The notes below the pieces were generated by a model. It saw only the letters and a program-made list of their open reading frames with translations. It made no database searches and was not told the origin of the DNA. Of a DNA stretch of 64,000 nucleotides, positions 5,492 through 61,577 are shown piece after piece. Each line of letters starts with the position of its first letter. The first letter of the stretch is position 1. The position numbers and the translations under genes are program-made. This stretch comes from Bactericera cockerelli (Eukaryota; Arthropoda; Insecta; Hemiptera; Triozidae): contig CM044959.1 in NCBI GenBank assembly GCA_024516035.1, positions 12,851,902 to 12,915,901 of the forward strand, given 5' to 3'.

Positions 5492-5919
5492 CTGTGGAAG
5501 AAAGAGATTTCTGTAATAAAGGAGCCATTTTACTCAGTCAACATAAACAAATTCATTGTTATTTGAAGCCATTCTCGTAAAGAATGTCAAAAGCCTGACA
5601 GTTAGCTTTTGATATTTTTAAGAAAAAAATAATACATTCTTTTTTTCTTCTGTTTTTGAGGAGAAAGCTCATACCGAAAAGTGTGGAACTGCCTAAGCAA
5701 AACTCACGGCTCCTGAGAATAAAAAACACATTGTTGTGGGAATGTTAAATATTACTTCAACATAAATATGAATGAATGAGGTTATACCTACTTGAAATTT
5801 TGAGATATTTTTTTAATGATTTATTGTCGTAGGCCATACTTTATTTAATTTCAAGTTAGTTCAATACGGGGGTGCGGCTGGTTGTATTAAAATATAAATA
5901 CAATCATGTATAAACTAAC

Positions 5920-16760: not shown

Positions 16761-16878
16761 GTCATGTTTGTAAAGGATGTAGCACTTTCCCGTGCAATGG
16801 TGTTGACCGCCCACCTCTGTTTATCTCTCTATCTATCTTCTATTATATTAAAGTGGTGTTTTTAACTTTATAGTTATA

Positions 16879-16955
16879 CTAGCGGGTTACATCTGCCGCT
16901 TCGCCAGTCCTTCAAACACACACATCACACCAGACACACACCCACACACATGAAT
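16879..16955 (-). mobile_element. Helitron 3' end with CA microsatellite (minus)
   Basis: On the minus strand it ends GGCGAAGCGGCAGATG..CCCGCTAG, followed by host T: the CTRR terminus and a short hairpin expected of Helitrons. A (CA)n run (16916-16953) adjoins it. The same pairing of a GT-type microsatellite with a Helitron end is seen at 29881-30074. The 5' end was not located. Confidence 0.6.
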
Positions 16956-21993: not shown

Positions 21994-22977
21994 TGTCCTG
22001 TCCCGGTTGACTTTGGAACTCGCGGCCTCTGGGTTACCAGACCGCCGCGCCGCCTCGAGAGCACATACACGTACCTTGGTGTCGAGTGGGTTGGGTTCCG
22101 ACAGAGTCTCCGGGTCCTTGGCGGCTCGCACCACCAGAGACTCTATGGCGGGTCTCAGAGCTATGATAGCGGCGGCCTGGGCGGGGTCCATGGCCAGGTT
22201 GATCCAGTTGTCGAGCCGCACTATGCCGTCTACGAGCTCCACCTGGGAATAAAAATAAAATAGATAAATTAAATGAATAAATAATAAATTTGTTTGTTTA
22301 TATCTCCATATCCATAAAAAAATAAATCATATTTGTTCAATCTTTTGTGTGTTTTTTTTTAACATCTTTGATCAAGTTTTATTTACAAATAACATAGAAT
22401 ATAATATACAAACATAGACATTAAAATTAACAAAACAAAACTTGATCAAGGGCGGTGCTAATGTCAACGGCATTCTCTTCCACACCACTTATTATTATTT
22501 ATCATAAGTTAGAACTTGGAACCCATACTGTCTATATTTCTATGTGTAAACTTGTATGATGTCTATGTATTATTTAATAAATAAAGATGCCAAATATTTA
22601 CAAATTACAAAATAAAATAAAAAAAATAAATGCTTTTTTTGTAAGTAAGTTTAAATAAACCATTACAAAGTCACATATGAAAAATAAGTAAAATATACAT
22701 GTTATAAACCACAAATTAATGATAAAATGCATATAGTGCCAAAGACAAAAAATATAATGATCTTAAAATACAACTATTCAAATTATATTACATTCATTTA
22801 TTTTTACTCTGGTAATGCTAAGCTAAGTCAAGTAAGACTAAATGGGATTTATTGTCTTTATTGACTCGCGTTCTTTCAGTATCTAAAGAGTTTGAGTAAA
22901 CAAACTCAAATCATAATAATCATCCATTAATTATGCTAGAAATGCGTGTTAATTTTGATTGGGTACTTGAGAAAATC

Positions 22978-23008
<31 letters not shown>

Positions 23009-26000
23009 TGTCTGGGGGTGCTGGAGTTCCTCAGCACCTGCCGCGCTTGATAATAATACTCTTTAGTGGAAGGTAACTCGACACCGACAGTTTGCACCCA
23101 CCTTGCGAGCTCCGAACAGCATGAGGTGAAGAGGCGTGATCATGGACATCTGCTTGCACGCGACGGACATAAATATATACATATTTATGTCCTAACTAAA
23201 GGACGGGGTTATTGCCTATGGCAATCTCTTCCACATTAACCTCACCCAGCCTGGGTAGGGTTACATAAGTAATGCCAGAAAAATAATTTATACAATTCAA
23301 CAATACGGGAAGCTCGACACCGACAGTTTACCACATAATAATACGTCTTGGGCTTACTGCTGGAATAATGGGACTTTAATAGTCTTAATCGGACAGTATA
23401 AATAAGGCGATATTATTATTATTTTTATTTGCACCCACCTTGCGAGCTCCGAACAGCATGAGGTGGAGAGGCGTGACCATCGACATCTGCTTGCACGAGA
23501 CGGCCTGGTAGGGTGGAGCACGTTTTTTTTATGGCTCGATGCCCTTCCTAACGCCAACGATTCTATTTGGTTTTAACGTCCTGATCTAGACGGGGGTGTT
23601 ATCCTCCATTCGCTGGGAATCGTACCAGCTACCCACATTAACCTCACCCAGCCTGGGTAGCGTTACATAAGTAATGCCAGAAAAATAATTTATACAATTT
23701 TACAATTTATTTACACTTTATTGATAGGACATATTATATACAATACAAATAATTAAAAATTAAAATACAATATAATAGAAGAAGAAAAAATAAATAAATA
23801 TATACATAATATATATTATGTCCTAACTAAAGGGCGGGGTTATTGCCTCAGGCAATCTCTTCCACCCAACCTTGGCAATCTCTTCCGCCCAACCTTAACT
23901 CGATGGAAAACTCGACACCGACAGGTTGCACCCACCTTGCGAGCTCCGAACAGCATGAGGTGGAGAGGCGTGACCATGGACATCTGCTTGCACGAGACCG
24001 CCTTGGTGCGAATCTTCTCGCCGAAGATGAAGAACGGAGACTTACTTACTCCGCAGTCATTACAGACCGCGAGGGTCCTTGACATGTTGCACCAGCCTCT
24101 TCCATTCATTTCTATCCTGAGCTAAGCTAAGTCAATTAAGACTAAAATGGGATTTATTTATTTATATATTTTTTTTTTCTTTTTTTTTTTTGTCTTTATT
24201 TATTGTCTTTATATCTATATAAAGACAATAAATGGGATTTATTGTCTTTATTGACTCGCATTCTTTCAGTATCTAAAGAGTTTGACTAAACAAACTCAAA
24301 TCATAATAATTATCCATTAATGATGCTAGAAATGCGTGTTAATTTTGATTGGGTACTTGAGAAAATCTTCTCTTTTATTTTTTTTTTGTCTGGGGGTGCT
24401 GGAATTCCTCAGCACCTGCCATGATAATAATACTCTTTAGAATAGAATATAATATACCTTGTTTATACTGCCGAGGTAAGACTGAAAAGTACCTTTACTC
24501 CAGCAGTCAAACAGGTCTTATATATTTTATGGGATAAATCTTTTACATATTAATAACATATAAGAAAACATGTTTATTTAAATAAAAAAAAAGCTGAAAA
24601 GGTAAAATTAAAAAAGGGGGAAAAATAAATTAAATTATAAGAAAAAAAAAAAAAAAATAGAAGAAAATTAAAGAAAAAAAAAATAGCAGGAAAATAATAT
24701 TAGTACCACTTTAGTGGAAGGTAACTCGACACCGACAGGTTGCACCCACCTTGCGAGCTCCGAACAGCATGAGGTGGAGAGGCGTGACCATGGACATCTG
24801 CTTGCACGAGACCGCCTTGGTGCGAATCTTCTCGCCGAAGATGAAGAACGGAGACGGGAACTTCTCGTCCAGAGTGGAGCAGTTCACCGAGAGCTTGTGG
24901 ATCAGGGCGTTCTTAGCTTCCGTCGTGTATACCTGAATAAGAGATATGTATAATAATAATAATAATAACCCCCGAAGTAATGAGAAATCGGTTCCGGGGC
25001 AAAATTGAAACAAACAATCCTCTGGGGGGGGTTTTTTAGAGGGTAGAAAACCCTTTCACGGGCTCCTAAATTCTCAAACCACGCCTGTGTTTGATCACGC
25101 AAACTTTTCCCTCCATTAAAAAAAAAAAAATAATAATAATAATAATAGTAGTCTCGCTGGGGGACTATAAACAGGGAGTAGACCAGCAGTCTCGCTGGGG
25201 GACTAGAAACACGGAGTAGACCAGCAGTCTGGATGGGGGACTATAAACAGGGAGTAGACCAGCATTGGCTTGGTTCTGGGGGCCCTTGTCATTTATTAGC
25301 TTCCTTGTAAAGACAGTGGTAGAAGTGCTGAGTCATTCCTCCACTGTCTGGCTACCATCGTTCACGATGACGCCACCCTATGATAATAATAATAAATATA
25401 ATGACTCACTTTCGTCAAAGGTAACCACCAGTTGAGGTTAATGCTCAAAGCATTTTCTACCACCTAATCCTCAGAGTCTTATTATTTTGTGGTCACAAAC
25501 TCAAATTTATGAGTAAAAATTCATGCACTGGGTGGGATTCAAACCAGCGGATCCCTACGCTACCTGGATAACTAGACTAGCGTGTTAAACACTTGACTAC
25601 CAGTGCACTAGAGATAATATAAAAGGTATCCACTTCACGACCAAGGTTATCGTATGAGAATTTCTTTGTTGTTGTATTTCTTTGTCCAGGAATAAATTTG
25701 TTTTTTTTTTTTTTTTGTAAAATTGTTCCCAACTTTTTAATGAAATTAAGGACATGAAATGTGTAATCTAAAAGTTTACAAAAGCATTGAAACTGTTTTA
25801 ATTGTTGGAAATTTACAAACCAGCTCTACCCACCCACCCTGGTGGTTCTCAAACAGCCAGATTTCTAATTTGAGTGGTCAGTTGGTCACCCATCAAGTCC
25901 TGGTCTCACTGGACGTTGCCTAACTTCAGTAATCTGACGAACACTGTATTCAACGTGCCATAAAGTAAGTAAGTAGGAGAGAGAAAAGCAACATTTTATT

Positions 26001-29000
26001 TTTTCGCAAAGTTTCATGCTCCACCCTTTTAAGAATCCAATAAGTTTGAATCCCACTGACTGAAACATTGCTTCACAACGTTTTGCACCTCTTCCTATTC
26101 AAAATTTGACCAAAAAAATTAAGTATAAGTATAAGTAGTGCTTTATTTAGACTGTTAGCGCAAGACAGGTAGTCCCATTATGCCAACAGTTTTAGTCCCA
26201 TTATGCCAACAGTTTAGTCTCATTATGCCAACAGATCAGTAGTTGCTTGGAACTGGTTGGGTTGGGTGGAAGAGATTGCCACAGGCAATAACCCCGCCCT
26301 TTAGGTAGGACATAAGTAAAGTTTTGCTTGGATTAAAACTTACTTGCTTGGATTAAAACTTAAAACTATTAAAGTAAAGTGTTGCTTGGATTAAAACTTA
26401 CTTTCCGTTTGCTCTGGTGCACGCACACATTGGGGTAGAGTCCCGCCACCAGTAGAGCTATCACCGTGTCGAGTTTCTCATCGGGACCTGTGTAGTTGTA
26501 GAACTGGGACACGAAGGATTCCTCTGGGAAGCCACAGTTCATGAGCAGCTGGGTCAGTTGGTTCTGTGGGGGCAGACGAACATATTGATAATAGAATAGA
26601 ATAGAATCTACTTTGTTTATACTGCCGAGGTAAGACTGAAAAGTCCCTTTACTCCAGCAGTCAAACACTGCCAGCGTATTGGGAGCATTGCCATCAGAAG
26701 AATTGACTTCCATATTCTATCTGTAAATTTTAATAAAGTCAAACAGGTCTTATATATTTTATGGGATATTTTATGAGATAATGTTAATTTGAAACAAGTT
26801 TGGTTATTTGTTCATTTTCACATAAAAATTTACTGTTAGTTTTTAATCACGACTGGTGTTATTTAATCAGGACTAGTGTCTGAATTCATTCTGCATCAAC
26901 ATTTATTATAGTCTAGTTTAATAAAAATTTTATTTGTATGTACATAATGTCTTTTTGTATCTATTTAAGAGTTCCACAAGAGAAACGCCAATTATCACAC
27001 CGACCTCTATTTAGATCGATTGTGAGCAGTTGATTCTATTTGGCTTAACGTACTGATTTGAAGTACATAGTCAGGATGGGAGTTTTGCCCTCTATTCGCT
27101 GGTAATTGTACCAGCTCCCCACATTAACATCACCCGGCCTGGGTAGGGCCGGAAATGCCAGCCTCACGTTTTTGGAGGGAACATAATTTTGTTCGAAAAG
27201 TCTGCTCCAACCGGGGGGATCGAACTCGGGATCTCTGGACTACGGGCAGTAGTGTCAACCATTACGCCACGGAGGCTTGCATCAACATTAATCAATGATT
27301 ATTTTTAATTTTCCAGAAAAAAACGAATTTTTCATCGGCCTCACTCGCATGAAATATTTCATGCCTCATATTGCCACAGGCAATAACCCCGCCCTTTAGG
27401 TAGGACATAACTTCAACTTCATTCTCTTTTTTTTCTTGTATATTTGCTTACTCTTTTTGTTTTTCTTTATATTTCATTGTATTCTACTGTATATATTTTT
27501 TGTTCTACCTAATAAAAGCTTTCTATAATAATAATAATATTACCAGGAAGTTTCTCAACTTCAAACAATGAAGATTTCTGTTGGCTTGAGATTTATCTCC
27601 GCCCCGTTTATTGTAATATCAATATTAATGTAAAATATACCTACAAATAATAATTTAATGATCTCTCACCTTGGTCTCCCAGGTGACCCTCAGGGTGGGC
27701 ACGGAGAGCTGTTTCTGGTCACAGAACGCCTCCTCAGCCTGCGGACCACGGGACTGCCGAATCTCATCCCACTTGTTGAACGCGTTGATCACGGCTACGA
27801 AGTCCGAGTAGCGACTGCCGGCGAACGCGCGCTGCGCGAACGAGAGGCGACGCTCTGTGACGAAGATCTCATTGGAGCCTGAATAGAATACATTATTTTG
27901 TTATTTATTTATTTATTTAAACTTATAATAATACTCTTTAGTGGAAGGTAACCACCAGGTGAGGTTAATGCTCAAAGCATTTTCTACCACCTAACCCTCA
28001 GAGTCTTATTATTATGTAATCACAAACTCAAATTAATGAGGAAAAATTCGTGCACTGGGTGGGATTCGAACCAACGGATCCCTACGCTACCTGGATTACC
28101 AGACTAGCGCGTTAACCACTTGACTACCAGTGCGTTAACCACTTGACTACCACTTAATATTTTACACAAAACAATCAACAATAAATAGGAGAAAAAAAAC
28201 TTGAGAATATAATATACAAAATAAACAACATTATTTAAACTCATAAAAAAAAAGTTATCAAATTTGTGTTAATCACTTTCGTGATATCACAACTATTCAA
28301 ACTCGCTTTACTAAATCTACGCTGAAACCGGTACTTGAACCACCGACCTCCAGGTTACAAGTCCACAGTCTTATCGATCAAGCTACTGAGGTCGGTACAC
28401 GAGACTTATAATTATTACCTGAAGCGCTGGCGGCCACAATGTTGAGCGCGTCCCCGCAGTTGAATATGGAGCCCAGGATGAGCATCTTGCCCAGGCGTGG
28501 TTCCAGGGGGAGGCGGGCCAGGATCCTGCCCAGGGGCGTGAGCTCGTCGTTCTGGTCCAGACACTTCATTTCTGGAAACACAATAGAAATTAAGTCTTTT
28601 TTTTTACACTTTATTTTTCTTTACAAAACAATCATCAAAAAAAAAAACAAAATTAAAAAAAAAACTCAGAAGTATGTACAAAAAGAAATAAAGATCAATA
28701 TTAATATTTAATTACAATTGTTTTGTAATCCGGGGCGAAGTTAATGCCTTAGGCATTCTCTGCCACTTATCTCATCAGTCAGTCATCATATTTGTGTTTT
28801 AATAATAATAATCAGGCACGGCCGGTGGGAAAATGTTTTGGGGGTGCTGACTGCTGACATATAAACCGGACTAGAATGGGATTTATTGTCTTTATTGACT
28901 CGCGTTCTTTCAGTATTATTTTTGGAATAAAGTTTATTCAATTTCAACTACACTTTTTCATCTCTCAATATAGGCCGTTTTTGTTTTATTTTTTTAACAA

Positions 29001-29877
29001 ATAAAGTTGTTCGTTACCTCTTAGCATCACCTCGGCCTCAATAACAGCATCGATGGGGGGCGGCTCAATAGCTTTTTATTTTATTATTTTCAAACAAATA
29101 AAAGTGTACGGTTACCTCTTAGCATCACCTCAGCCTCAATGACAGCATCAATGGGGGGCGGCTCGATAGCTTTGCTCATGAACAAATAAAAGTGTACGTT
29201 ACCTCTTAGCATCACCTCAGCCTCAATAACAGCATCAATGGGGGGCGGCTCGATAGCTTTGCTCAGGAACAAATAAAAGTGTACGTTACCTCTTAGCATC
29301 ACCTCAGCCTCAATAACAGCATCGATGGGGGGCGGCTCAATAGCTTTTTATTTTATTATTTTCAAACAAATAAAAGTGTACGGTTACCTCTTAGCATCAC
29401 CTCAGCCTCAATGACAGCATCAATGGGGGGCGGCTCGATAGCTTTGCTCATGAACAAATAAAAGTGTACGTTACCTCTTAGCATCACCTCAGCCTCAATA
29501 ACAGCATCAATGGGGGGCGGCTCGATAGCTTTGCTCAGGAACAAATAAAAGTGTACGTTACCTCTTAGCATCACCTCAGCCTCAATAATAGCATCGATGG
29601 GGGGCGGCTCAATAGCTTTTTATTTTATTATTTTTAAACAAATAAAATTGAACGTTACCTCTTAGCATCACCTCAGCCTCAATAACAGCATCAATGGGGG
29701 GCGGCTCGATAGCTTTGCTCAGGAACAAATAAAAGTGTACGTTACCTCTTAGCATCACCTCAGCCTCAATGACAGCATCGATGGGGGGCGGCTCAATAGC
29801 TTTGCTCAGGAACTGGCCGATGGCCCCGAGCCGCAAGAGCTTGATGGAGAGGGAGATCTCGTGCAGGGGGGTGCGGA

Positions 29878-29948
<71 letters not shown>

Positions 29949-29953
29949 GTGTG

Positions 29954-29984
<31 letters not shown>

Positions 29985-32900
29985 GGTGTGGGTGTGGGTG
30001 TGGGTGTGGGTGTGGGTGTGGGTGCGTTGTGTGTGTTTTGATGGGCTGGCAAAGCGGCGGTTGTAAGCCGCTAGTTTTACTTTAAAAGTCAAAAGTTAAT
30101 TCGAAACATCAACGAATTTTTACAAATTCATTGATTTTTCGAAATTATTTTTGGAATAAAAATTTAATCAATTTCAACTACTATTTTTCATCTATCAATA
30201 TACTGTTTTTGTTTTATTATTTTATTGTTTTATTTTTAAACAAATAAAATTGTTCGTTACCTCTTAGCATCACCTCAGCCTCAATGACAGCATCGATGGG
30301 GGGCGGCTCAATAGCTTTGCTCAGGAACTGGCCGATGGCCCCGAGCCGCAAGAGCTTGATGGAGAGGGAGATCTCGTGCAGGGGGGTGCGGAACATTTCT
30401 GGCGTCATGTGCTCATCTAGCCGGTCGTATCGAGCCTGAAATAAGTTTATTTATTTACTAGCAGTTAACCCGTGCTTCGCCACGATGGTTTTAGGCACTT
30501 TTAAGGGCTCTATCTATGGAACGGTTTGGATTTTTGCAAAATCCTTTCTTATTGCACGTATTCAGTATGCAAGGAATGTTGTGTCAAAAGTTCAGCTCGC
30601 TAGGTATTACGGTTTGGGCTGTAGAGCGATGATCAGTCAGTCAGTCAGTCAGTGACTTTGACATTTATATATTAAGATTTAGAAACTCTTTATTAGTAGA
30701 ACATACATAGACAAAAAATGGTAAAAATTAAATATAAAAATTGACAACATTAATAATATAAACAAGAAAAAATAAACAAAATATATACATATGTCCTAAC
30801 TAAAGGGCGGGGTTATTGCCTATGGCAATCTCTTCCATAGGCATTTTAGTGAAGCTAAGTGAACATTTTAGCTCAGTGAGCGCGATTAGCTCAGTGGTTA
30901 AGCACTCGCTTGCCATGGGGAAGGTCCCGGGTTCTATCCTTCAAGCCGACAAAAAAATGTATTCTAAATTTGGTTACAGTTGTTTGTAAGGGATACCATC
31001 CGGTGCGTTCGTGTTGATCCAGCACTTAAATGGGAAACATTGTGTCACTTATCGCCCATCACATGGGGAGTACAACACAGACCAGAAGCTCCTGTTTCAA
31101 GGCTACAAAAAAAGGCCGTGAAACACTCTCATCTTTTTTTAAAAAGAAAAAAAAAATGTTAGAACCCGGAGAGGCAAGAATTTGAATTTGAATAGAATCA
31201 TCAGTTGATCAATAATTTTATGAACACCTACTGAGATACTTCTGGCGTCATGTGTTCATCTAGCCCAGCGGTTCTCAAACTTTGCTGCGGAGCACCAAAT
31301 GACCGATGTAAATTTCACGGGGCCCCCCCGGCAGTAGTGCCAAAACTAAAATACCTCACTCATGAGACGTTGACGAATGCTGACCTCAAGCAGGTTTGGA
31401 AAAAGGCAAAGCGAAAGAAGCAGAAATGATCAAAATTAAAGAAAAGTTCGTCTTGGTATCCGTAGTGGGACAAAATGTCTGTCCCGGTAGCTCAGTGGTA
31501 AAGCCGGCACTCTGTGAATCCAAAGATTCCAGAGTTCGTGGGTTCGAAACCCAGCCGGAACATGACAAGTTATCCTCCCATTCAGGATTTTACCACATAG
31601 TAATGAGTCTTGGGCTTACTGCTGGTATAATGGGACTTTACTAGTCCTAATTGGGCAGTATAAATAAGGCGATATTATTATTATTAAATGACCCTTCCAA
31701 TGTACCAATAGAGAATCAGTTAGTTGGTATCCTCCTGTTGTCTGCTTTCAAAAATACAACTTATCTCCTAAAGTTATCAACGTTTGAACAAAATTAACGT
31801 GAAGGACCCTTCCAATGTATAAGCGATTTTTTTTTAATTGAACGAAAAGCCTGAACGAGACCGAACAGTCAGCTCTGGTCAACCAAAATTTGAAGAATAA
31901 AAAAAAAAGTAATTTTTGGAACTCTGGTTTGTTTAGATTAAAGATATCGGTGTTTGTTTACATTTTGCATTTGAAATCATCCACTTCTCCTTCTTCTTAC
32001 TGAACCAAACGCCATGACCGAACGAACGAGCCGGTCCACTCTGGTCAGGATTTTTCGGTCCGGTCAAATAAAAAAAAGTGAATTTCAGTGACCAGGTCAA
32101 GCTTCGGTTCGCTTCGTTCAAATAAAAAAACCGCTTTATGTTACCTTGGTGATGAGTTTGAAGCAGTAGCCAGGCCTGACCCGCCCGGCGCGCCCCTTCC
32201 TCTGCTCCAGGTTGGTCTTGCTCGCCCACACCGTGGCGTAGGACGTCATGTTGTTGTGCGAGGTGAACAGCTTCATCTTCGCCTTGCACACGTCAATCAC
32301 GAACACCACGTCGTCTATGGTGATCGAGGTCTCGGCGATGTTGGTCGATAGGATGATCTGTTGAAGAATAGAATAGAATATACCTTGTTTATACTGCCGA
32401 GGTAAGACTGAAAAGTCCCTTTACTCCAGCAGTCAAACAGGTCTTATATATTTTATAGGATAAATATTTTACAATTTAATATATAAAAAAAAACCATGTT
32501 TATTTTTTTAAAAAGCTGAAAAAGTAAAAAATGAAAAAAAAAAATAAGAAATGAGAAGTTATCATATTCGGCTCAACCAAGGTTGGGTGAGGTAGAATTT
32601 GACGAACACCACGTCGTCTATGGTGATGGACGTCTCCGCGATGTTGGTCGAGAGGATGATCTGTTGAACAAATGAGAAGTTAAATTAAACCTGTTTTCGT
32701 TGCACTCTTAGCTTTACCATTGTTTCGATAATTCTTGCCTTTATTATTGTTAGGTTGTTTTTAATTTTTCATTATTGTTAGGCTGTTTTTATCTTTCAGT
32801 ATTGTTAGACTGTTTTTATCTTTCAGTATTGTTAGCATTTTAGGATAGCTTTTATTATTCTTAGGTAAGTTTATTTTATTAGGGAACATGTAAAATGGAT

Positions 32901-35900
32901 ATATCCGTCAATTTAATAAATAAATAAGTTATCATATTCGGCCCAACCAAGGCTGGGTGAGGTAGAATTTTGAACACCACGTCATCTATGCTGATGGACG
33001 ACGTCTCCACGATGTGTGTCGAGAGGATGATCTGTTGAATTAATGAGACATTATCATATTCGGCTTTTGAGATATTTGAGTGGATCATAAATTCCAGGAC
33101 ATTTTTTAATTAAATATACGGGAAATACTCATTGATGCAATCAATTTTCCTATCTTATAAGTTAAATATTTAATTAAAAACTATACCTAAAAAAGCCCGA
33201 ACTCCAAATCTTTGTGCCTAAATATTTCTGGGCAAACTTTTTTTTAAATTATTATTATTATGTTTAAAGGACCTACTAGATTAGATTATGTTATGTTTGT
33301 TCACAAGAACACAATGGCTGTAAGGCAAATTCCGGAATTACGAACAACCAATGACAAAAAAGGAAAGAAAGAAGAATCCGACTTTAGTTTAGACTAGTAA
33401 TATAACTCCATATTTTACACAACCTTAACACGACATACCTTCGTAACACCCGGTGGTACTGACTCGAAAACTCTCCGCTGATCTTCTCTGGGAAGCTGGG
33501 AGTGAAGAGGGAGGATTCGGTAATCATTACTACCTGTTGAACAGACAAACCACATAACGTGTTAACTTTACGTAACATAAAGCTACCACAACAACAACCA
33601 AGCACACATAGAAAGACAATCACAAACACAATTAACGAAATAAGACTGTCTGACAGTAAGAAAAAAAGAGTTAAGGATTCAAATTTTCATCATAATTGAA
33701 CTGGTTTGAAATTGATAATACAGCGGATTAGAAACACACTTAACGAAATAAGATGGTCTGACAATAGGAAAAAAAGATTGAAGGCTTAAAATTTTCATAA
33801 TAATTGAATTGGTTTGAAATTGATGAAATAGCTGATTTGAAATTGATAAAACGAAAAAATTCCGCCATGCATTTCATTCCTAGAGCTCTCCACTAAATAT
33901 TAGTGTACAACTCGTGAGCTCATGTCCTACACTTGTAGGTATTTCATTCATATTGGAACACCAATCTATTGCTCCATAAATTACTAGACTAGTAATATAA
34001 CTCCATATTTTACAAATCCATAAATTCCTGGACTAATAATATAATATTACTTCATATTTTACAAATCCATAAATTCCTGGACTTAACCATTAACACCTAG
34101 CGTTGCCATATGGCAACGATGGAGGCAGTGCAAGTTTCTGACCTGTTAGTTCAATACGGTACATGTAACCACTTTATAACATTATAGTTCTCATTGATGA
34201 CAATATTTGCTACCTTCTGAATTTTACTAGACAGTTCTATCAGTTGTTCTATCAGAAGTTTTGATATTTATTTTTTCAAAATGGATCAACGTTTTCCAAC
34301 AGTTCAGGTGTTAATGGGTTAATACATCTCTATATTTTACAAATCCAAATCAAGGGAAAGACACAGAGATCTATTGTCTAGGGTTCTTCTGCACCTCCTG
34401 CCATACCTAATAATTCTATCAAACTGCCTTATCTTGCAGTTTTTTCATGGCTTACAAAGAAGATTAACATTAACTGGCCCGAGTTTGCTGGGGAACATTA
34501 ATCCTAATTAGAGTTATTTAGGACGGGTTAGCGGGGTCAAATGATTCACAATAATAATAATAATTCTCTCTAGTGGAAGGTAACTACCAGGCGAGGTTAA
34601 TGCTCAAAGCATTTTCAAAGCAACCCTTAGTCTTATTACTAACTCAAATTAATGAGGAAAACTTCATGCACTGGGTGGGATTAGAACCAACGGATCTCTA
34701 TGCTACCTGGATTACCAGACTAGCGCGTCAACCACTTGACTACCAGGGCAGAAGTTGGATAGGGTTAAAATTAGCAGGGGGTTACACACGGGGGTAAAAT
34801 CTTCGAGCACAATCAGCTCACTTGGTTCAAAAAGCGACGTTACAGGCGGTGTATAGTCCAGTATAGGATCGTACAAAGTCCACGGCCTATGAATGCGGCC
34901 ACACATCAAATTAAACAGAGTCACACATTTATTTGGCTTGTAGGGGACCAGCGCATGTTCCCGACTTTCTGTGATTGCTTTGAGTCGGATTTCCTCTTTC
35001 TTCTTCAGGCGCTTCAGTTTTTTGTAGTGTTTTATTTGAGCGCCATACTTCAATTTAAACAAAATGTCCGGTGGAATCGATTTGATAATCGGCAAGTGAA
35101 TGGCGAACCTCGCTATTCGTTTATTCGATCATTTTATTGTTTTTCGTTAGGTCGCAATAGTTTTATTGATTTTGCAAGGAAGAGAGAAAAATGAACAGAA
35201 CGTTAGTTTGATAGTCCAGAAATAAACGTCACAGTGAAGACACCTACCAGAGCTTTGACGGCGGTATGTAAAACAATGTAATTTGAATACATCCTGACTT
35301 GAAGGTATCTCACAACTTTAAAAGGTAACTCAATAAATAGTAAATGAGTAGTACATATACTACAAAAATCTAAATCACATCATTTGCTCAAATCACTAAT
35401 TTCCTCTCGTAATGTCATTTCTCATTCAAGAAACTATTCATTTATCCTCACGAGATCGGGTGAAAACCGGGCATCCAAAGTACAGAGTAAAAAAAAAATC
35501 AACTCCACCGGGATTCGAACCCAGGTCAGCGTGCGTGCCAGCCAGCGCGCTACTCCACTTGGCCACAGAGACTGTTAGAAATGAGTGATGAATTATGAAT
35601 ATTTAACACTCACCGAACATGGGGTGCTGGGACAGATGCCGCAGCAGGACGAATATAACATTCCATCCTGGCAGGAACACCAGCACCGCTCCGTCCACAT
35701 TCTGATTCTTGATGTACTTCAGCAGGGACTGGAAAATAAAGGAGAAATTTTGAGAAATACTTACATATACATGCGGCGTAATCGTTGTGACTACTACCCG
35801 TAGTCCAGAGTTCCCGAGTTCGACTCCCGGTTGGGGCAGACTTTTCGACGAAAATTCTGTTCCCTCCAAACACGTGAGGCTGGCATGTCCGGCCCAACCC

Positions 35901-41900: not shown

Positions 41901-42295
41901 TACATAAAAAGGTAGTTGTGCCCCGGAACTGATATCGCAACGTTTAGTAATACTTCCCATTTAAAATTCGCCAGCTTCGATGGCGCGTTGAATGCACCGG
42001 TTCTCGTAAGATCACCGAAGTTAAGCAACGTCCAGCGAGGTGAAGACTTCGTGATGCTGGCATTCCGGCCCAACCCAGGCTGGGTGAGGTCAATGTGGGT
42101 AGCACAGGTTTGTAAGTTTCCTGTGAATGGAGGGTCAAACCCCCGTCGTCTATGACCATGCAGTTGAAAAATGACGTGTAACTCTAATAAAACAACTAAA
42201 ACATTTAAAATTCGAGACAAAACGTTGCGCTAAAAATTTTTGCGCTCAGTGGGATCTTGGGTTTACAGAGTCTTTCGGTTACGTCATACATTATG

Positions 42296-42327
<32 letters not shown>

Positions 42328-45300
42328 TCACACGCAGTTTGTGATACTGCATTTACGTGAATATTTTGTTATTTCCTATATTGTTTAATTTAGATTTAGT
42401 ATTTCCCTACATCTTTCTTTGTATTTATCAATACTCATATCAAGATCTAGGTGTTGTGAATATTGATTGTAAGTTTGTAGTGTTGACAAGAGGGTCGAAT
42501 TTCTATACATGGGTAAGCAATTAGGTATTTCAAAGTATTCATTTGACGGTTTGTTTCTTGGTCTAGTGTTTGGTACTCTTATTTGGATCTTAACACGTAT
42601 GAGACGGCGTGCCCACCGGTGGGTCACTTTTTTTTCAATTTCCCTTGTAACGTGACCCACCGGTGGGCACAGATAATGCTATTATATATTTTTGTACTCG
42701 CCCGTCCCAATTTTTTTTGTTGTTATCATATTTGGAACACATACCCTAATTTGAAGCCGTCCCAGCGCAGCGTACAAACTATAGAAAATAGGACCCGTCT
42801 CATACGTGTTAATGTTAAGCTACGTCGGGCAGGGCTGGTTCTCACCTGTCACGGGGTGGGTCCGGCCAGGTACCTCCAGGACGGGACAGTTGTTGAAGTA
42901 CTGGCTGAAGGCGGACGTGTCTATGGTGGCGCTCATGAGGATGACACGCAGGTCTGGGTACAGGTGGACCATGTCACGTAGCACCACCATGTCACGTCTT
43001 GGCTTTACAGAGTCTTTCGGTTACGTCATACATTATGGTTTTCTTTTTTTTTTAGAATATTCACACGCATTTTGTGATACTGCATTTACGTGAATATTTT
43101 GTTATTTCCTATATTGTTTTCATTTAGATTTAGTATTTCCCTACATCTTTCTTTGTATTTATCAATAGGGAAGAGAATGCCGTTGGCATTAGCACCGCCC
43201 TTGATCAAGTTTTGTTTTATTTCAATTCTATGTAAATATTCTATGTACCTACTTTATTGTAAATAAAACTTGATCCAACATGTTTAATAAAGATCTAGGT
43301 GTTGTGAATATTGATTGTAAGTTTACGTAGTGTTGACAAAAGGGTCGAATTTCTAAACATAGGTGGGCAATTAGGTTTTTTCGAAGTATTCATTTGACCG
43401 TCTGTTTCTTAGTCTAGTGTTTGGTACTCTTATTTGGATCTTAATGTTAAGTGTAAGTTTGTAGTGTTGACAAGAGGGTCGAATTTCTATACATAGGTAA
43501 GTAATTAGGTATTTCAAATTATTCATTTGACGGTCTGTTTCTTACACCCATTCATGAACAGCGAATTTTGTCTGATTAAAGGAAATCATGCTTCAGACCA
43601 TGCTCAAACGACTTTTTCTGTTCATAAATACGGCTGTAAGTCTAGTGTTTGGTACTCTTATTTGGATCTTAATGTTAAGCTACGTCGGGCAGGGATGGTT
43701 CTCACCTGTCACGGGGTGGGTCCGGCCAGGCACCTCGAGGACGGGACAGTTGTTGAAGTACTGGCTGAAGGCGGACGTGTCTATGGTGGCGCTCATGAGG
43801 ATGACACGCAGGTCTGGGTACAGGTGGACCATGTCACGTAGCACCACCATTTCACGTCTTGGCTTTACAGAGTCTTTTGGTTACGTCATTCATTATGTTT
43901 TTTTTTCTAGAATATTCACACGCAGTTTGTGATACTGCATTTACGTGAATATTTTGTTATTTCCTATATTGTTTTAATTTAGATTTAGTATTTCCCTACA
44001 TCTTTCTTTGTATTTATCAATACTCATTTCAAGGGTTGGGTGGAAGAGATTGCCACAGGCAATAACCCCGCCCTTTAGGTAGGACATTTCTCTCTTTTTT
44101 TCCTTCTTGTATATTTGTTTAATCTTTTTGTTTTTCTTTATATTTCATTGTGTTCTACTGTATACATTTTTTGTTCTACCTAATAAAGCTTAAAAAAAAA
44201 ATCTAGGTGTTGTGAATATTGATTGTAAGTTTGTAGTGTTGACAAGAGGGTCGAATTTTTATACATAGGTGAGCAATTAGGTATTTCAAAGTATTCATTT
44301 GACGGTCTGTTTCCTCGTTTAGTGTTTGGTACTCTTATTTATAATAATAATAATAATGAATTTTATTATTTATCTACAATGTTTAAATATTTATAAATTT
44401 CCCTCTAAGTACTATGTGTACTTTTAGGGAATTGGTCTACTTTATCTTTGGATCTTAATGTTAAGCTACGTCGGGCAGGGATGGTTCTCACCTGTCACGG
44501 GGTGGGTCCGGCCAGGCACCTCGAGGACGGGACAGTTGTTGAAGTACTGGCTGAAGGCGGACGTGTCTATGGTGGCGCTCATGAGGATGACACGCAGGTC
44601 TGGGTACAGGTGGACCATGTCACGTAGCACCACCATGATGAAGTCCGAGTTCACGTCTCGCTCGTGAATCTCGTCCACGATCACGTGCGACACGCCCCGC
44701 AGACCGCCTTCCAGCTTGCGGAGCAGCACGCCTGGAATAATGATGATCACGTTTATTATTATTATTATTAAACAAGTTGGATCAAGTTTTATCTACAAAA
44801 TAATGACATAGAATATATATTTTTATTTATTTATTTAGAAACTCTTTATTAGCAGAACATGTATTCATTATATACAGACAAACAATGGTAAAAATTAAAT
44901 ATAAAATTGACAGTATTAATAATATAAACAAGAAAAAAAATAAAATATATATATACATAATATGTCCTAACTAAAGGGCGGGGTTATTGCCTATGGCAAT
45001 CTCTTCCATAATGATGATCATCGTGCTTCGATTAGGTCAGTGGAACACGTTGATCGCCAACGCTATAGACTATAGAGTTACATTTCCTCAGGGGCTCGAA
45101 TGACACTCCAATGTCAGGTGAAGTCACCTGACGGGGCCGTACGGGATAATTATGTCAGGTGAATATGCCTGACGGGGCCAGCTGGGAAAGGTTAGTGTCA
45201 GGTGAATTTACCTGACGTGGCGATCAACGTGTTAAGCACCCATTTGCATTGCGAAAGTTCCCGGGTTCGATCCCCGTCCCGACAAAAATAAAATGAATTC

Positions 45301-48300
45301 TCAATCTTGTTTAGTTTACATGATTTTAAAAGTTATATTGGCAGGGAAGCTAATATCTACATTACCTACTCTTCCATGGTGTATATAACTATAAAGTTGA
45401 AAAACACCACTTTAATATAATAGAATATAGTTAAGAGACTTCCATAATACAGTTGTCCGTTAAAATCATTAATAAATTCTCCCATTAACCCATTGCCTAC
45501 CATGGGTAGCACATTTGCAAGACACTGGTATTGCCTGGGGTACCAGGGTTGCATATATGCTAGACACGTTTGAACCTTCTTGGATAGCATATATGCAAGA
45601 CAATTTGTCTAGCACGTATGCTATACACGGTCCCTAGTGACAAGGAAATATGGGTTTTTGTCTGGGGGACCGCGTGTTACACATATGCTAGACAGGTGAT
45701 TTTGAGGAAAATACCCTTGGTCCCCAGGGCAAGTTTCATAAAAATGGCTTGGTAGGAAATGGGTTAATGTCCAATCAACTGTTCAAGGTGTAAACATTTT
45801 AACACCTCAGGAGACGACTCACCCACAGTGCAGAACATGATGCCTCCGTAGGGTCGGGGCAGAGCCGACTCAAACCTCACGCTGTACCCGGTGCTCTGGC
45901 CCAGTTCCTCACAGCGCTCGCTCGCCACCCGATCCGCCACGGAAACGGCCGAGATGCGCCGAGGCTGAGTGATGACGATGTTGCAGTAGGCGCCCTGGCC
46001 AGTCTGTAGGTACTCGTCCAGGATGAACTGGCAGATCTGGCGCGTGGGAGAGTGAACGTGGTTAGTATGTTTTTTTTTTATGGTTAAGATCACGGAGAAA
46101 TTACTCCATTTTTATAATTAATATTAGGTATTGAAAAAAAAAACTTAAAAATACAATATTTATATATTTTATTTTCTCAAGATACTATTGAACATATATT
46201 TATTTATTTAAAACATTAATTACAAACAATAAACAAAATAATTATAACATCATTTTTAAAAAAAAAATCATTAAAAATAAATATATATAATAATAATAAT
46301 GCTTTTTCTTTGTGTTATTATGTCACAATTTTAGTGGGTAGCGCAGAATCATAGGATTTTACTACTCTAATTTACAATATCTTGTACTATTTTTTTGCCT
46401 AAGATTCTGCCACTGGTCGCTGCTTCACATCAAAGCAGCTACTCATTTTTCCTCACGAGGTTCGAGTGGACCCCGAACACCCAAGTACAGAGCAGAAAAA
46501 ATCCTCCTCCCCTGGGGAATCGAACCCAGGTCACCATGTGTGCAATGCCTAGCGCGCTAACTCGCTCTGCCACGGTGACTACTAAAGGCTGAGTGATGAC
46601 GATGTTGCAGTAGGCGCCCTGGCCAGTCTGAAGGTACTCGTCCAGGATGAACTGGCAGATCTGGGGCGTGGGAGAGTGAACGTGGTTAGTATGTATTTGT
46701 TAAGAAGGATTTATATGTACGGAGGGAACAAAATTTTCTGTGTGAAAAGTCTGCTCCGACCGGGGGTCGAACTCGGGATTTCTGGACTACGGGCAGTAGT
46801 CACAGCCGTTACGTCACGGAGACTTGCGTTACCTCGCCTGGTTACCTTCCACTAAAGAGTGTTATTATATATTATTAGGTTAATCTCAAAATTAGCCGAC
46901 CTCCGTGGCTCAGTGGTTAAGAGCATTGGTTGCTGACCCGGAGGTTGCGGGTTCGAATCCCGGCCGGAGCGGAAAATTCTAACCGAGTTTTTCAGTTCTC
47001 GGAATGGCATGGGTGTAAAGGTAATGTGCCCTGAAGTAATGCGAAAGCGGTTCCGGGGCACAACTACCCTAAAAAAAATTTTAAAAAAATCTCAAAATTT
47101 GAGGGAAGAAAAAACAGTATTTCACAGCCGTTACGTCACGGAGGCTGGCGACACCTCGCCTGGTTACCTTCTACTAAAGAGTGTTATTATATATTCTTAG
47201 GTTAATCTCAAAATTTGAGGGAAGAATCAATATTTATTTTATGTAGGTTCTACATATTTATTTCTCATCTCTTTGTTGTTTCTTTTTTTTAAACTTATTT
47301 TAATGTATTTTGACTTGAAGGAAAGGATTTATGGAACAAATGCCGACCCCCAGTAGGTTTAGGAGAGGGCAAAGTGAAAGAAGAAGAATAGATGAACATT
47401 AATAAAAAAAAATTGATTTGATTTGATTTGAAAAAATAATAATAATAATGACGCACCTGCGTGGTCTTCCCACTCCCGGTGTTCCCCTTGATGATGGACA
47501 CGGGGTGCTCGTTGATCATGCGCATGATCTCGTTCCTCTTGCTGAACACAGGCAGGCGGCCCCTCTCTGTATACTGGGACTGGAGGGCGGGGTCACTCTT
47601 CATGCGGGAGCTGAAGTCTGCGAGCAGGTCCTCGCTCATCTGGTCCAGGTTAGCCTGAGAGTGGAAATCAAGTTCACAAAAAAAAAATAAGTTCTAATAT
47701 TTTTTTTTTTTTTTTGAGATTGGAAATCAAGTTCACAAAAAAAAATAAGTTCTAATATTTTTTTTTTTTTTTTTTGAGATTGGAAATCAAGTTCACAAAA
47801 AAAAATAAGTTCTAATATTTTTTTTTTTTTTGAGATTGGAAATCAAGTTCAAAAAAAAAAAATAACTTCTAATTTTTTTTTTTTAAGTTTTATTAGGTAG
47901 AACAAAAAATATATACAGTAGAACACAATGAAATATAAAGAAAAAACAAAAAGATTAAACAAATATACAAGAAGGAAAAGAAGAGAGAAATGTCCTACCT
48001 ACAGGGCGGGGTTATTGCCTGTGGCAATCTCTTCCACCCAACCCTTGTTTATTTATTTTTTATTTAGAAACTCTTTATTAGTAGAACATATATACAGACA
48101 AATAATGGTAAAAATTAAATATAAAAATTGACAATACTAATAATATAAACAAGAAAAAAATAAGAAAAAAAAATAAACAAAATATATACATAATTATATA
48201 ATTTATATATACAGGCGACCCCTCTCCGTATACTGGGACTGGAGGGCGGGGTCACTCTTCATGCGGGAGCTGAAGTCTGCGAGCAGGTCCTCGCTCATCT

Positions 48301-50885
48301 GGTCCAGGTTGGCCTGAGAGTGGAAATCCAAGTTTTAACCCATTAACGCCTGAACTGTTGGAAAACGTTGATCCACTTTGAAAAAATAAATATCAAAACT
48401 TCTGATAGAACAACTGATAGAACTGTCTCGTAAAATTCAGAAGGTAGCAAATATTGTCAACAATGAGAACTATAATGTTATAAAGTGGTAACATGTACCG
48501 TATTGAACTAAAAGGTCAGAAACTTGCACTGCCTCCATCGTTGCCATAGGCAACGCTAGGCGTTAATGGGTTAATAATCATCATCATAGGGTGGCCTCAT
48601 CGTGAAAGATGGTAGCCAGAGAGTGGAGAAATGACTCAGCACTTCTACCACTGTCACTGTCTGGCTGGGGGACGTTAAGCAGGGAGAAGACCAGTGTCCC
48701 GCTAGAGGACTATAAACAGAGAACAGACTAGCCAACCCTTACAAGCCAGGCTAGCTTGCAGTTTCCTAAGGGTTAAATGGCTTAAAAAGAAAAGTCCCAG
48801 TCCTCATGATAGTTGATCGCACATAGAAATATGTGGTTCAGGACGAGCCAACTTTGAAACAAAGTTGGCTGGAGACCATTACTCAACCCTCCAGCTGTAG
48901 CCAATCTGGCTACAACAACAGTGGCGTCATCGTGACAGATGGTAGCCAGAGAGTGGAGAAATGACTCAGCACTTCTACCACTGTCTTTACAAGGAGGCTA
49001 ATAATTGACAAGGGCCCCCAAAACCAAGCCAATGCTGGGGTACTATAAAATGCTGGTCTACTCTTTGTTTATAGTACCCCAGCCAGACTGCTTGTCTACT
49101 CCCTGTTTCTAGTCCCCCAGCCTGACGTCTTAATAATAAATAAAATAAATCTGGGCCTTAGAGCCAAAGTTGTCATAAGTCAATTGGTCCACTGGTAGTC
49201 AAGTGGTTAAGGCGCTAGTCTGGTAATCCAGGTTGCGTAGGAATCCTTTGGTTTGAATCCCACCCAGTGCATGAATTTTTCCTCATTAATTTGAGTTTGT
49301 GACCACATAATAATTAGACTCTAGAGGGTTAGGTGGTAGAAAATGCTTTGAGCGTTAACCTTGCCTGGTCGTTACCTTCCACTGAAGAGTATTATTATTA
49401 TTCAAGCACTTATTATTTTTTTTTTTTTTTACATTTTACTATTTACCTTTCTTAAATTTTATACCTCATGTTCATATCTATACTTGTCTTATAGTAAGTA
49501 GCATATAATAGGTTGATCCCCTTTTATTGTGAGGGAATCAACTGTTTGTTTTTCACTTTAAATAAATAAATTAAAAAAAAAATCAAATTACTATTATTGT
49601 TATTATCATTATCATTTTGGAAATTGAGTTAGGTATAGATTTGCAATGTTCAAAATTGAAAACTGCAGCACGTACCGTGGCCAGGGGTCCCTCGTCTATG
49701 TTGCACGCGGTCCACGGGTTCCAGTTGGTCTGCGGCGGGGACCAGGGCACCACGCTGGCTGTCTGCGGCTTCGAGTCAACGAACTGCTCCAGGACTTGCG
49801 TGTTGAGGAGGGACACGGGATCCGTGCCCTCAGGCTGGGGGGAGGAAGGGTAGGTCAATATAGATGTGATATAACAACAAATCATTACTATAAAAACGAA
49901 CACAGAATTATACAAGAAACAAACCATGACACAAGAAACAGATTATTTAAAATTCCAAATACCAAAAATAGATATGGAGAAACCTCTTTACAACATCGAA
50001 TACCAACATTACTAAACAATATACCAGAGAAGTTAAGAAACATAGAAAATAAGAAAATAATGAAGAAAGAAATTGAAATGTTTTATTTGAAGAACAACAA
50101 TGAAATATAATAGAAGTTAAATTAAATTGAATTGAAGAATTTGTTAGAGATAAAGAAGAAAAAAAAAAAAAGTAGACCAAATCCCTAAAAGTACACATAG
50201 TACTTAGAGGGAAATTTATAAATATTGAAACATTGTAGATAAATAATAAAATTCATTATTATTATTATTTTCATAGAAAAATTTTACTTGAAATAATAGC
50301 TTAATAATAAGATAACTAAAACATGGAGGGACTGAGAATTATTATTTTTTTTTAATTAAAGTTGTGTTCACAGCTTTTTTTAAAAGATTTTTTTTTAAAT
50401 ATTTCATAGCTTTTTTTTATTTCAAAACCATGAAACTGTAGACACCTATCATGTCTTGGGTATCTGAACATATCTCAATAGACTTACCATGTGTATTACC
50501 TTGGTGGTAAGATACTTGCTTGCCATGCGGTAGGTCCCGGGTTCAAATCCCAGAACCGACAAAAAAATTGCATTCAAAATTTGGTTACAGATGTTTGTAA
50601 GGGATACACCTTCCGGTGCGCTTGTGTTGACCCAGCATCTAAATGGCAAGTTTTGCATCACATTTCGCCCATCAGAGAGGAGTCATACTACCGGATGGGC
50701 AAGGTAAAACACAGACCATGAGCGTCTACAATAGCTATTGTTTCATGGCTACGAAATTTATTTATTTATTTACACTTTATTATTAATAGGACATATTATA
50801 TACAACACAAATAACTAGAAATTAAAATACAATATAATAGACGAAAAAAAAAATAAAGAAAAAATAAATACATATATATACATAA

Positions 50886-50933
<48 letters not shown>

Positions 50934-53900
50934 GGCTTTCTTTTATATGGCAGGATTCTCCTTCAAGAAGCTCTTCCACCCAACCATAAATACTGATCCA
51001 GTTTCTTATAGCTGTTTGAAATACTGGACCAATATATTTTTAAAATTCTCCAGCGTTGGAGAATTTCTGGCCGTTTCTGGTATTGAGTTCCATAGGCGTA
51101 CTGCAATAACATGAAACGATTTCTCGTACGCAGTCGTACGGTGTAAAGGAACGGACAGTAATCTGCGAGAAGCAGATCTAGTGTTCAACCCATTTGAGTC
51201 AGAAAGAAATTCAAAAACCTCAAATAAGTACTGAGGACATTGTAAAAACATCACTTTGTACAGGAACAATAATGTATGAAAGTTCCTTCTTGTTTCAAGG
51301 TTCATCCAATTCAGGTCTAAGTAGGATTGTGAAACGTGGTCGTATCTTTTGAGGTTCAAAATATAACGGACACAGGCATTCTGAGCTACCTGAAGTGAAC
51401 GAGCCAAATTAGTGCCAAGTCCAGAGTACACTACATCACAATAATCAAAAATTGGCATAATCAAAGATTCTACCAATTTCTTTTTAAGGTGGATGGGGAA
51501 AATCTTTCTGAATTTGCTCAAGGTGTGGAGCGAGTAAAACACTTTCCTCCTCACTTGAGCAACATGCTTCTCCCAGGACAAGGTGTTATCAATATGAATG
51601 CCAAGATTTTTTGCACTTTGGGTAAAAGGTATTTGTTGTCCATTTAATAGTAAGGGAGGAAGATTTAGTAAGGAGGTAGATGATGAAAAGTGATTTGTTC
51701 CCACTAAGATAGCCTGCGTTTTGGTTGGATTCGGCGATAGAAATAAATCTTTTGCCCAACTGGCAAATCTATCCAAATCCTCATTGATTAATTGTATAGC
51801 CGTGGTGACCTCACTTGGAAGGCAGTGTATGTAAACTTGTACATCATCCGCATAACAGTGATAATGGCAGTGTCTGAAGACACCACGGATGGTTGATATG
51901 TATAAGGCAAAGAGGAAAGGTCCGCAGACAGAGCCCTGTGGAACGCCTGACCGAATAGACCGCCAGTCCGACACAAGACTTTCACATAGTACTCGTTGCT
52001 TACGACCTCTCAAGTAAGAATCCACCCATGATAGTGCTTTCTCGGAGAAATGTAGTTTTTGTAAAGTTTTGAGTAGGATGTCATAATCGACACTATCAAA
52101 AGCCTTGCTTAAGTCCAGCAGTACCAACAAAGTAACCTTTTTGTTGTCAAGAGCAGCACGAATATCGGTCGTGACCTTAACCAGAGCAGTAGTAGTGCTG
52201 AAATTCCGTCTAAAACCGGACTGATAAGGATCAACCAACCCAAAATCTTCCATAAACGCAAGCATCTGCTTGACTGCTAGTTTTTCCAATCCCTTGGATA
52301 CGATTGGGAGCAGCGATATTGGGCGGAAGTCAGAACAGGAAGAGGGGTTACTAACCTTCTCCAAAGGTATTATATTAGATAGTTTCCAGGGTAAAGGAAA
52401 AGATCCAGTAACAAAAGACTTATTGAAAATGTTTGTTAAGACAGTTAATATAAAAGGCAAAGACATTTTCAACATAGTTAAGTCAAGTCCGTCATATCCC
52501 GAGGCCTTGGATTTAATACTGAGAATAGCTTTACGGACATCCTCTTCAGAGACTTCTGAAGATATGTCCTAACTAAAGGGCGGGGTTATTGCCTTTGGCA
52601 ATCTCTTCCATGAAATGAAGACAGCTATGAAACACTCATCTTTAAAAATAAATCAGCAACTTACATTGATATCATATTTGTGTTCATCACTTTCGTGATA
52701 TCGCAACTACTCAAACTCGCTTTACAAAAATCTACGCTGAAACCGGGACTTGAACCACCGACCTCCAGGTTACTAGTCCACTGCCGTATCGATCAAGCTA
52801 CTGAGGTTGGTAACGTACATTGATATGAATGGGCGTAATCTCGAGCGTGTCCAACACGTCTTGGACCTCGGTCATCAGCTCGGGAGCTATCTTCACATCG
52901 TACGGCTTTTTTTTAAAGTTTTTTTTTAATATTTCATAGCCTTTTTTTATTTCAAACCCTTGAAACAACAGCTACTGTAGACACCTATCATGTCTTGGGT
53001 ATCTGAACATCTCTCAATAGACTTGCCATGTGTATTACCGTAGGGTTATTGCCTTTGGCAATCTCTTCCATGAAATGAAGAAGGCTGTGAGACACTCATC
53101 TTTAAAAATAAATCAGCAACTTACATTGATATGAATGGGCGTAATCTCGAGCGTGTCCAACACGTCCTGAACCTCGGTCATCAGCTCGGGAGCTATCTTC
53201 ACATCGTACGGCTTGAGCACGTCGTCAGTCTTGGGCCGGGCCAGGGTGCCGCTGAACGCCTCGATCACATTCAGATGGAACAGCTGCCGCACCAGGGAGA
53301 GAGCGCAGGACTTGGAGGCCGACTGCTTGTTCGAGCCGGTCTCCCGCGCGTGGATGTCTGGAAGAGGAAAGAAATTTTATTATTATTTTTTTTTTTTTAA
53401 ACATTTTATTTATTTAAAAAAAAAAGTTATCATATTTGTGTTTATCACTTTCGTGATGTCACAACTACTCTAACTCGCTTTACTAAATCTACGCTGAAAC
53501 CGGGACTTGAACCACCGACCTCCGGGTTACGAGTCCGCCGCCTTATCGATCAAACTACTGAGGTCGGTCATTTTTATTTATTTATTATTAACAATATTGA
53601 ATTTTTACAAAGGTTCTTTTCCTAAGCTAAATGATAAAAGCTTCTATTAATTTGTTTTTTTTTTTATTATTAAAAAAAGCGACTTTGGCTTTCAACTGCG
53701 TGGTCATATCATGACGGGGGTTATACTTTTCATCTCACAAACTAGCTAGCTATTCACATTAACCTCACCCAGCCTGAGTGGGGCCGGGAATTACAGGCAT
53801 CGCGAAAATTCGAAATTGAATGTCCACCCAACCAAGTCCTGACCCCGCTGAACGTTGCTTTAGTTCAGTGACAGAACGAGAACTGGTGCATTCAACGTGC

Positions 53901-61233: not shown

Positions 61234-61577
61234 GTGGGTAGTGCACTCTGCCGGCGTATATGGCTACTACGTACTAGACAGTCATTCATCTATCGATCTG
61301 TGCATGCAGTATTTTCGGTCCGAGATATGAGTTTTGATTTGCTTTCATTTGATTCGGTTCGGTCATTTGGATTTTTGTTTCGCGACTCGCGTGTTTGCGG
61401 TCATTTCTGTTTGTAGTTTTGTACGTGGACTTGGTGCTGGAAAAGTCGGTAATTTAAAATAAATAAATTGAAAAAGTTGTGTCGTTTTGAATAGTGAAAA
61501 CCTCGTGATTTTATCCCCTAAACTACATTCAATTATTAATTTGTGACGATTTGACATTCATAAGTCATTGAAAAACC

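Follow-up and report, generated by a model that had tools for sequence, protein, structure and literature searches.

The window, the whole stretch of 64,000 nucleotides that was analysed (C5:12,851,902-12,915,901 of the assembly searched, 565 Mb in 1032 contigs), contains the gene mle (DHX9 family), which runs on the minus strand from ~59.7 kb to 17.6 kb. Both the exon model and the additional partial matches within the gene come from the Diaphorina citri protein P0002 (tblastn and a splice model). The gene has 22 exons, the last of which rests on weak matches; the splice script missed the exon 14 start and the joins around exons 11-12, which were taken from sequence reading. A rough exon-joined protein is 83% identical to a D. 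citri protein over 99% of the query, and 81% identical to a Cyamophila willieti protein over 52% of the query, which marks the host as a psyllid. No transcript of the same species was recognised among the best 120 of 7671 matches. One mle intron holds an ORF (34712-35128, minus strand) that corresponds to an insert in the mle proteins predicted for Diaphorina (P0003) and for Cyamophila (P0016), and may be a conserved nested gene or an alternative exon. A Pfam search with this ORF gave no match at E 0.001, and its best matches to solved structures are weak (E 0.39 or more, uS15-like). Two other reading frames lie outside mle: citrate synthase (61572-62966, plus strand), a single uninterrupted ORF of 464 aa that is either an intronless gene or a retrocopy, and an ORF at 9011-10009 (plus strand) with an in-frame 336-bp tandem duplication, both halves of which are open and differ by ~19 synonymous and 16 nonsynonymous changes.

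Partial copies had been reported in an earlier note beside exons 6, 8, 9, 10, 11, 14, 15 and 19, and all eight exons indeed have them. The exon numbering of that note is kept here:

53125..53357, minus strand: exon 6, whole (tblastn, splice model)
47457..47654, minus strand: exon 8, whole (tblastn, splice model)
45823..46036, minus strand: exon 9, whole (tblastn, splice model)
44492..44731, minus strand: exon 10, whole (tblastn, splice model)
37841..37980, minus strand: exon 11, 5' part (tblastn, splice model)
32145..32359, minus strand: exon 14, whole (tblastn; start from sequence reading)
30261..30435, minus strand: exon 15, whole (tblastn, splice model)
24750..24932, minus strand: exon 19, whole (tblastn, splice model)

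The partial copies are real as sequence. A self-comparison of the window, a check that the note had proposed, yields many direct local repeats at these eight exons, and most pairs are 88-100% identical over ~50-360 bp, far beyond chance. Exons 6, 8 and 9 have one copy each, exons 10 and 14 two each, exon 19 three and exon 15 nine; exon 11 has three clean copies and further ones inside a noisy patch. The exon parts of the 22 copies compared are 53-146 nt long. Copies of exons 6, 10, 11, 15 and 19 lie downstream of the exon and represent its donor side, and those of exons 8, 9 and 14 lie upstream and represent the acceptor side. As judged from sequence reading, that every copy contains a single splice boundary holds for 21 of the 22, but not for 36267-36319, which has lost its donor. 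The one-boundary layout is what a direct duplication would necessarily produce if one of its ends lay in the exon and the other in the intron. We did not find this layout in the literature on partial exon copies or on exon insertions with target duplications, which does not prove its absence there.

Most clusters are of one of two kinds. At exons 6, 9 and 19, and probably at exon 8, a retroelement lies between the copies:

52812..52908, minus strand: partial copy of exon 6 (3' part and donor), 96.9% identity, no indels
52583-52672, minus strand: intron continuation of the exon 6 copy, 95.6% identity, no indels
52909..53042, minus strand: element F between the exon 6 copies, its ends judged against another F copy at 50377-50500
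52673..52811, minus strand: tRNA-like SINE nested in the exon 6 copy, target duplication ~13-14 bp (sequence reading)
51006..52568, minus strand: LINE ORF, reverse transcriptase part only, inside an older element (RVT_1, E 2e-32; position by reading)
48212..48334, minus strand: partial copy of exon 8 (acceptor side), 97.5% identity
47675..48211, minus strand: interval between exon 8 and its copy, holding two retroelement 3' ends and a 60-bp tandem repeat that contains A-runs
46586..46698, minus strand: partial copy of exon 9 (acceptor side), 97.5% over 120 aligned
46078..46585, minus strand: tRNA-like SINE and 211 bp ending in poly(A), between the exon 9 copies
22839..24041, minus strand: three partial exon 19 copies (24041-23909, 23506-23429, 23164-23099) with nested elements
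24042..24121, minus strand: 80-bp insert with terminal GTAAG repeats, separating the exon 19 duplications (sequence reading)

Exon 6 has matches in only two places, both within the window. Its copy and the intron continuation form, together with 53043-53214, a direct repeat of ~172 bp; element F has its 5' start 3-4 nt away from one copy, and its A-rich 3' end directly adjoins the other. The nested SINE entered this repeat later than the duplication itself. A conserved 50-nt motif before several LINE pieces was considered as a shared 5' addition, and reads instead as the older element's 3' UTR. The exon 8 copy differs from the exon by three substitutions, all synonymous, and has one indel in its intron part. 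The exon 9 copy has a single exon change, which is synonymous; here the 5' end of the SINE, judged from other copies, lies within ~10 nt of the partial copy and the poly(A) abuts the whole one. The AT-rich 211 bp between SINE and poly(A) would need a 3' transduction or a second element. At exon 19, by sequence reading, repeats of ~465 bp flank the 80-bp insert with its GTAAG tail, followed by more nesting. We take this insert to be RTE-like; no second copy of it was found in the window. An element 3' tail abuts one repeat at all four exons, an A-run at exons 6, 8 and 9 and a simple repeat at exon 19 (by reading). Near-identical repeats directly flank one element at exons 6, 9 and 19. The retroelements at these four exons and at a further locus described below (L027) all lie in the sense direction of the gene by reading; five of five is only suggestive, and in an intronic case (46894-47121) the tRNA-like element is on the opposite strand.

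At exons 10, 14 and 15, by contrast, one element flanked directly by the repeats is not found in the duplications or, at exon 15, in the array:

43669..43850, minus strand: partial exon 10 copy (donor side), free of substitutions over ~200 aligned bases
42809..42991, minus strand: further partial copy of exon 10, sharing the junction and the 13-bp deletion of 43669..43850
32602..32668, minus strand: partial copy 1 of exon 14 (acceptor side), four exon changes, all synonymous
32926..33048, minus strand: partial copy 2 of exon 14, decayed, with three amino-acid changes and a 3-nt insertion
28996..29896, minus strand: nine partial exon 15 copies (donor side), most in an 87/98-bp tandem array
29882..30143, minus strand: insert of 262 bp containing a (CA)n run, which separates the exon 15 intron from the first copy

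Both extra copies of exon 10 start at the identical base, and their intron parts carry different private insertions; sequence reading and alignment detected no element at the duplication junction. The two copies of exon 14 likewise have a common junction. Element J entered this cluster after the duplication, at whose junction no element lies. Adjacent copies without a foreign insert are thus seen at exon 10, at exon 14 (before J) and between units within the exon 15 array. The 262-bp insert, part of which resembles 16860-16950, was not recognised as a retroelement. The (CA)n between exon 15 copies was considered as a retroelement tail and dropped, since the neighbouring sequence looks like a Helitron 3' end.

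Exon 11 combines clean and defective sequence:

37459..37840, minus strand: indel-ridden patch resembling the nearby clean exon 11 copies and element
36544..37452, minus strand: tandem units with 3' parts of exon 11 and the 3' end of a LINE
36267..36319, minus strand: exon 11 fragment without donor, between direct repeats of 76-79 bp

The tandem units share 264 identical bp. Aligned with nearby clean sequence, the 184 positions of 37459-37668 show 9 substitutions but 33 indel events, and 37797-37828 has 3 indel events in 32; the window-wide median is 0.12 indel events per substitution (n = 145 repeat pairs). Among the alignments listed by a permissive scan of 638 chunks, four have over 30 indel events: three in this patch (indel events to substitutions 32:7, 42:4 and 41:6) and one at 24603-24800 (33:10), which by reading spans an insertion and unrelated flank. 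The patch is most likely unpolished sequence in a tandem cluster. The earlier note had set exon 11 apart as the one affected exon of which no intact version remains; none is assembled, but most likely because of this noisy patch, a defect of the assembly. The other copy pairs are dominated by substitutions, apart from A-runs and single longer gaps, which speaks against assembly noise as the general cause outside 37459-37840. Contig-end overlaps fared no better: at three sampled 100-N gaps no direct repeat lies close to both sides, so there is no sign of unmerged contig ends at them. The assembly effect that the note had listed among possible causes is established for part of exon 11, and is possible for the remaining exons in the form considered below.

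How the copies differ from the whole exons bears on their age and origin. Distinct changes between copy and whole exon comprise 27 synonymous and 9 nonsynonymous ones. The expected synonymous share is 0.37 for a freely decaying copy facing an exon that accepts only synonymous changes, as calculated from sites other than those of exon 15, and the departure has p ~5e-6. The six simplest pairs (exons 6, 8 and 9, exon 10 copy 42809, exon 14 copy 32602 and exon 19 copy 23429), a subset picked after the table was seen, give 14:0, for which a guessed share of 0.46, allowing AT-biased mutation, yields 2e-5. Exon 10 copy 43669, exon 15 copy 29724 and exon 19 copy 23909 have no exon change. In the intron parts of the repeats 29 of 629 bases differ (seven pairs, one per cluster). 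Because the changes are mostly synonymous, the copies look like alleles of working exons and not like decaying fossils, and the codon test rules out old neutral fossils as the general state. Decayed exceptions are copy 2 of exon 14, one small copy at locus L012 (see below) and 4853-4939; the last belongs to an odorant-receptor exon (5078-5533, minus strand) and matches it over 82 aligned bases with a 5-nt insertion. The codon pattern fits two readings: the duplications are recent and the population is very diverse and recombining, or the assembly has mixed haplotypes.

The clusters are also concentrated at exons. By automatic clustering 8 of the 22 clusters in mle touch an exon (3.3 expected, p = 0.009; 4.5 expected and p = 0.057 with placement outside dispersed repeats). 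After merging by hand, 8 of 10 do (1.5-2 expected, p 9e-6 to 8e-5); this merging was a matter of judgement, joined nested clusters at exons 19, 11, 10, 8 and 6, dropped six clusters (two satellites and four dispersed-family pairs), kept 48591-48985 although it belongs to a dispersed family, and counts the partly defective exon 11 among the eight. The suggestion that exons merely serve as recognisable markers is not supported: introns are duplicated too, but exon ends are over-represented among the clusters.

Nor is the layout confined to one gene, as had been supposed. Twenty ten-kb loci (8 adjoining the window and 12 spread over C1-C7) contain 33 local direct-repeat clusters, 24 of them outside dispersed families, and 16 of these 24 are in the 12 loci away from the window. 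Judged by the longest pair, an insert of at least 100 bp is present in 2 of the 24 (L006 and L012). The same rule finds five clusters in 40 kb of the window (20-60 kb), where two more fail through nested elements. Exons with the layout of the mle exons are present at L012, L024 and L027, on the same chromosome as mle and within 70 kb (7 stretches) around C5:5.0 Mb; L024 and L027 were fetched as neighbours because of the find at L012 and are not random, and domains and elements at the three loci were named by eye. L012 has an exon end with donor in two copies, one with two synonymous and the other with two nonsynonymous changes. At L024 an Ig-like exon has a single copy, with 5 synonymous and 0 nonsynonymous changes; the fibronectin-like exon at L027 likewise has one copy (2:2, alignment reading), with a LINE-like piece between the two. 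At L024:6961-7280 there is in addition an array of partial Ig-exon ends, with 9 synonymous and 1 nonsynonymous differences from the whole exon in 39 nt; its first intron bases look unchanged despite the exon-end differences. Many of the 92 repeat pairs listed for other loci are tandem arrays or dispersed-family members.

The explanation to which we give an even chance is that these are genuine local direct duplications, made partly by retroelement insertion and partly by plain tandem duplication. A duplicated stretch with one end inside an exon and the other in the neighbouring intron would leave one whole exon and a truncated copy with one boundary, and purifying selection would remove duplications that cut an exon in any other way; the layout would thus follow from duplication geometry and selection together. 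At exons 6, 9 and 19, at L027, and probably at exon 8, we infer target-primed reverse transcription with an unusually long target duplication of ~100-470 bp, which would heal the exon struck by the retroelement. Long target duplication, one of the causes that the earlier note had offered, fits these cases, but not exon 10, exon 14 or the exon 15 array. For these, plain tandem duplication, subsequently multiplied by unequal exchange, would fit, and with it the note's proposal of template switching (or break repair). Exon 11 would combine both routes with the assembly defect. The copies would be young, and would face a whole exon derived from a different allele, either through recombination in a diverse population or through a multi-haplotype consensus.

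Known systems resemble each route in part. Non-LTR (LINE/SINE) insertions likewise place an element with its 3' tail between direct repeats, and the SINE at 52673-52811 is an ordinary case. The mle repeats, unlike these, are ~100-470 bp long and span exon boundaries; in the accessible parts of PMC1291365 and PMC2887409 RTE target duplications are given as 10-20 bp, and PMC1291365 mentions L1 repeats as long as several hundred nt. Small tandem duplications are established in cells at breaks with 3' overhangs, as a class under 100 bp in the available text of PMC8355091. The copies at exons 10 and 14 and in the exon 15 array are similarly direct and have no junction insert, but the mle duplications reach ~740 bp and occur repeatedly at exon ends. 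Several observations sit uneasily with the duplication reading: the mostly synonymous differences (27:9) are unlike simple decay after duplication, the exon-end excess is left without explanation by random insertion, the assembly is faulty at the exon 11 patch, exon 9 has 211 extra bp, and exon 15 has the unrecognised 262-bp insert.

Heterotype false duplication, as defined alongside the homotype class in the accessible part of PMC9516828, is a serious possibility that we hold to be somewhat less than probable. The assembly, probably made from several heterozygous insects, would have joined divergent haplotypes in series; haplotypes that match well only at exons would be joined there, each join leaving an unmerged piece of exon. 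The copies do differ as alleles do (27:9), mostly synonymously as between functional alleles, and the exon enrichment of the clusters and the raw-read-like patch in exon 11 point the same way. Psyllid precedents exist: D. citri v3.0 has many loci assembled as false tandem duplications, attributed to the use of multiple psyllids in the available sections of PMC11659978, and exons 5-10 are repeated in a low-quality mle model of D. citri (P0001). The junctions, however, speak against it. Element ends coincide with them at exons 6 and 9, exons 10 and 14 have common scars, and exon 15 has an array. The copies are short (~70-740 bp), no assembly gap separates them since the window contains no N, and the sampled gaps lack overlapping ends; some copies carry amino-acid changes and hence are real fossils. 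The anatomy of the junctions thus favours real insertions and tandem duplications, and haplotype mixing is favoured by the codon pattern, by the excess at exons and by the patch in exon 11.

Retroelements might also prefer exon ends in the sense direction, with target duplications of sufficient length to restore the exon, and the copies might then exchange with the whole exon by unequal recombination, a combination that we consider unlikely. Copies would then evolve like coding sequence though unread, because exchange would carry their amino-acid changes into the gene, where they would be selected against. Template switching during replication, or paired-break repair, acting alone at sites where retroelements were trapped by chance or arrived later, seems to us more doubtful still. 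It is in keeping with the element-free junctions at exons 10 and 14, the later entry of J and the small tandem duplications made from overhang breaks in cells (PMC8355091, in the part available), but at exons 6 and 9 the inserts hold a retroelement known from other copies and fitted between the repeats. That the copies are functional, as alternative exon ends or splicing decoys, would explain the conservation of amino acids, which show few changes, but is highly improbable: none has more than one boundary, all run into intron or element, and amino-acid changes are present in the small copy at L012 and in exon 14 copy 2.

If the duplications are real, essential genes would tolerate insertions into exons, the long target duplication repairing the exon in the same event, and a reason is needed for the frequent strikes at exon ends. 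If they are an assembly effect, haplotype stitching anchored at exons can produce spurious truncated exons in psyllid genomes, with misleading gene models as a result; mostly synonymous differences are then a cheap flag to look for.

Other repeats of the window include a 243-bp element in two copies (48332-48574 and 34083-34325, 95.9% identical) with inverted ends and TTAA borders, MITE-like by eye; a satellite-like array at 17816-19144 (unit ~146 bp) with a related piece at 57295-57474; and a 5S-rRNA-like match at 41970-42062 (plus strand, 49.9 bits), which could be a 5S-derived SINE.
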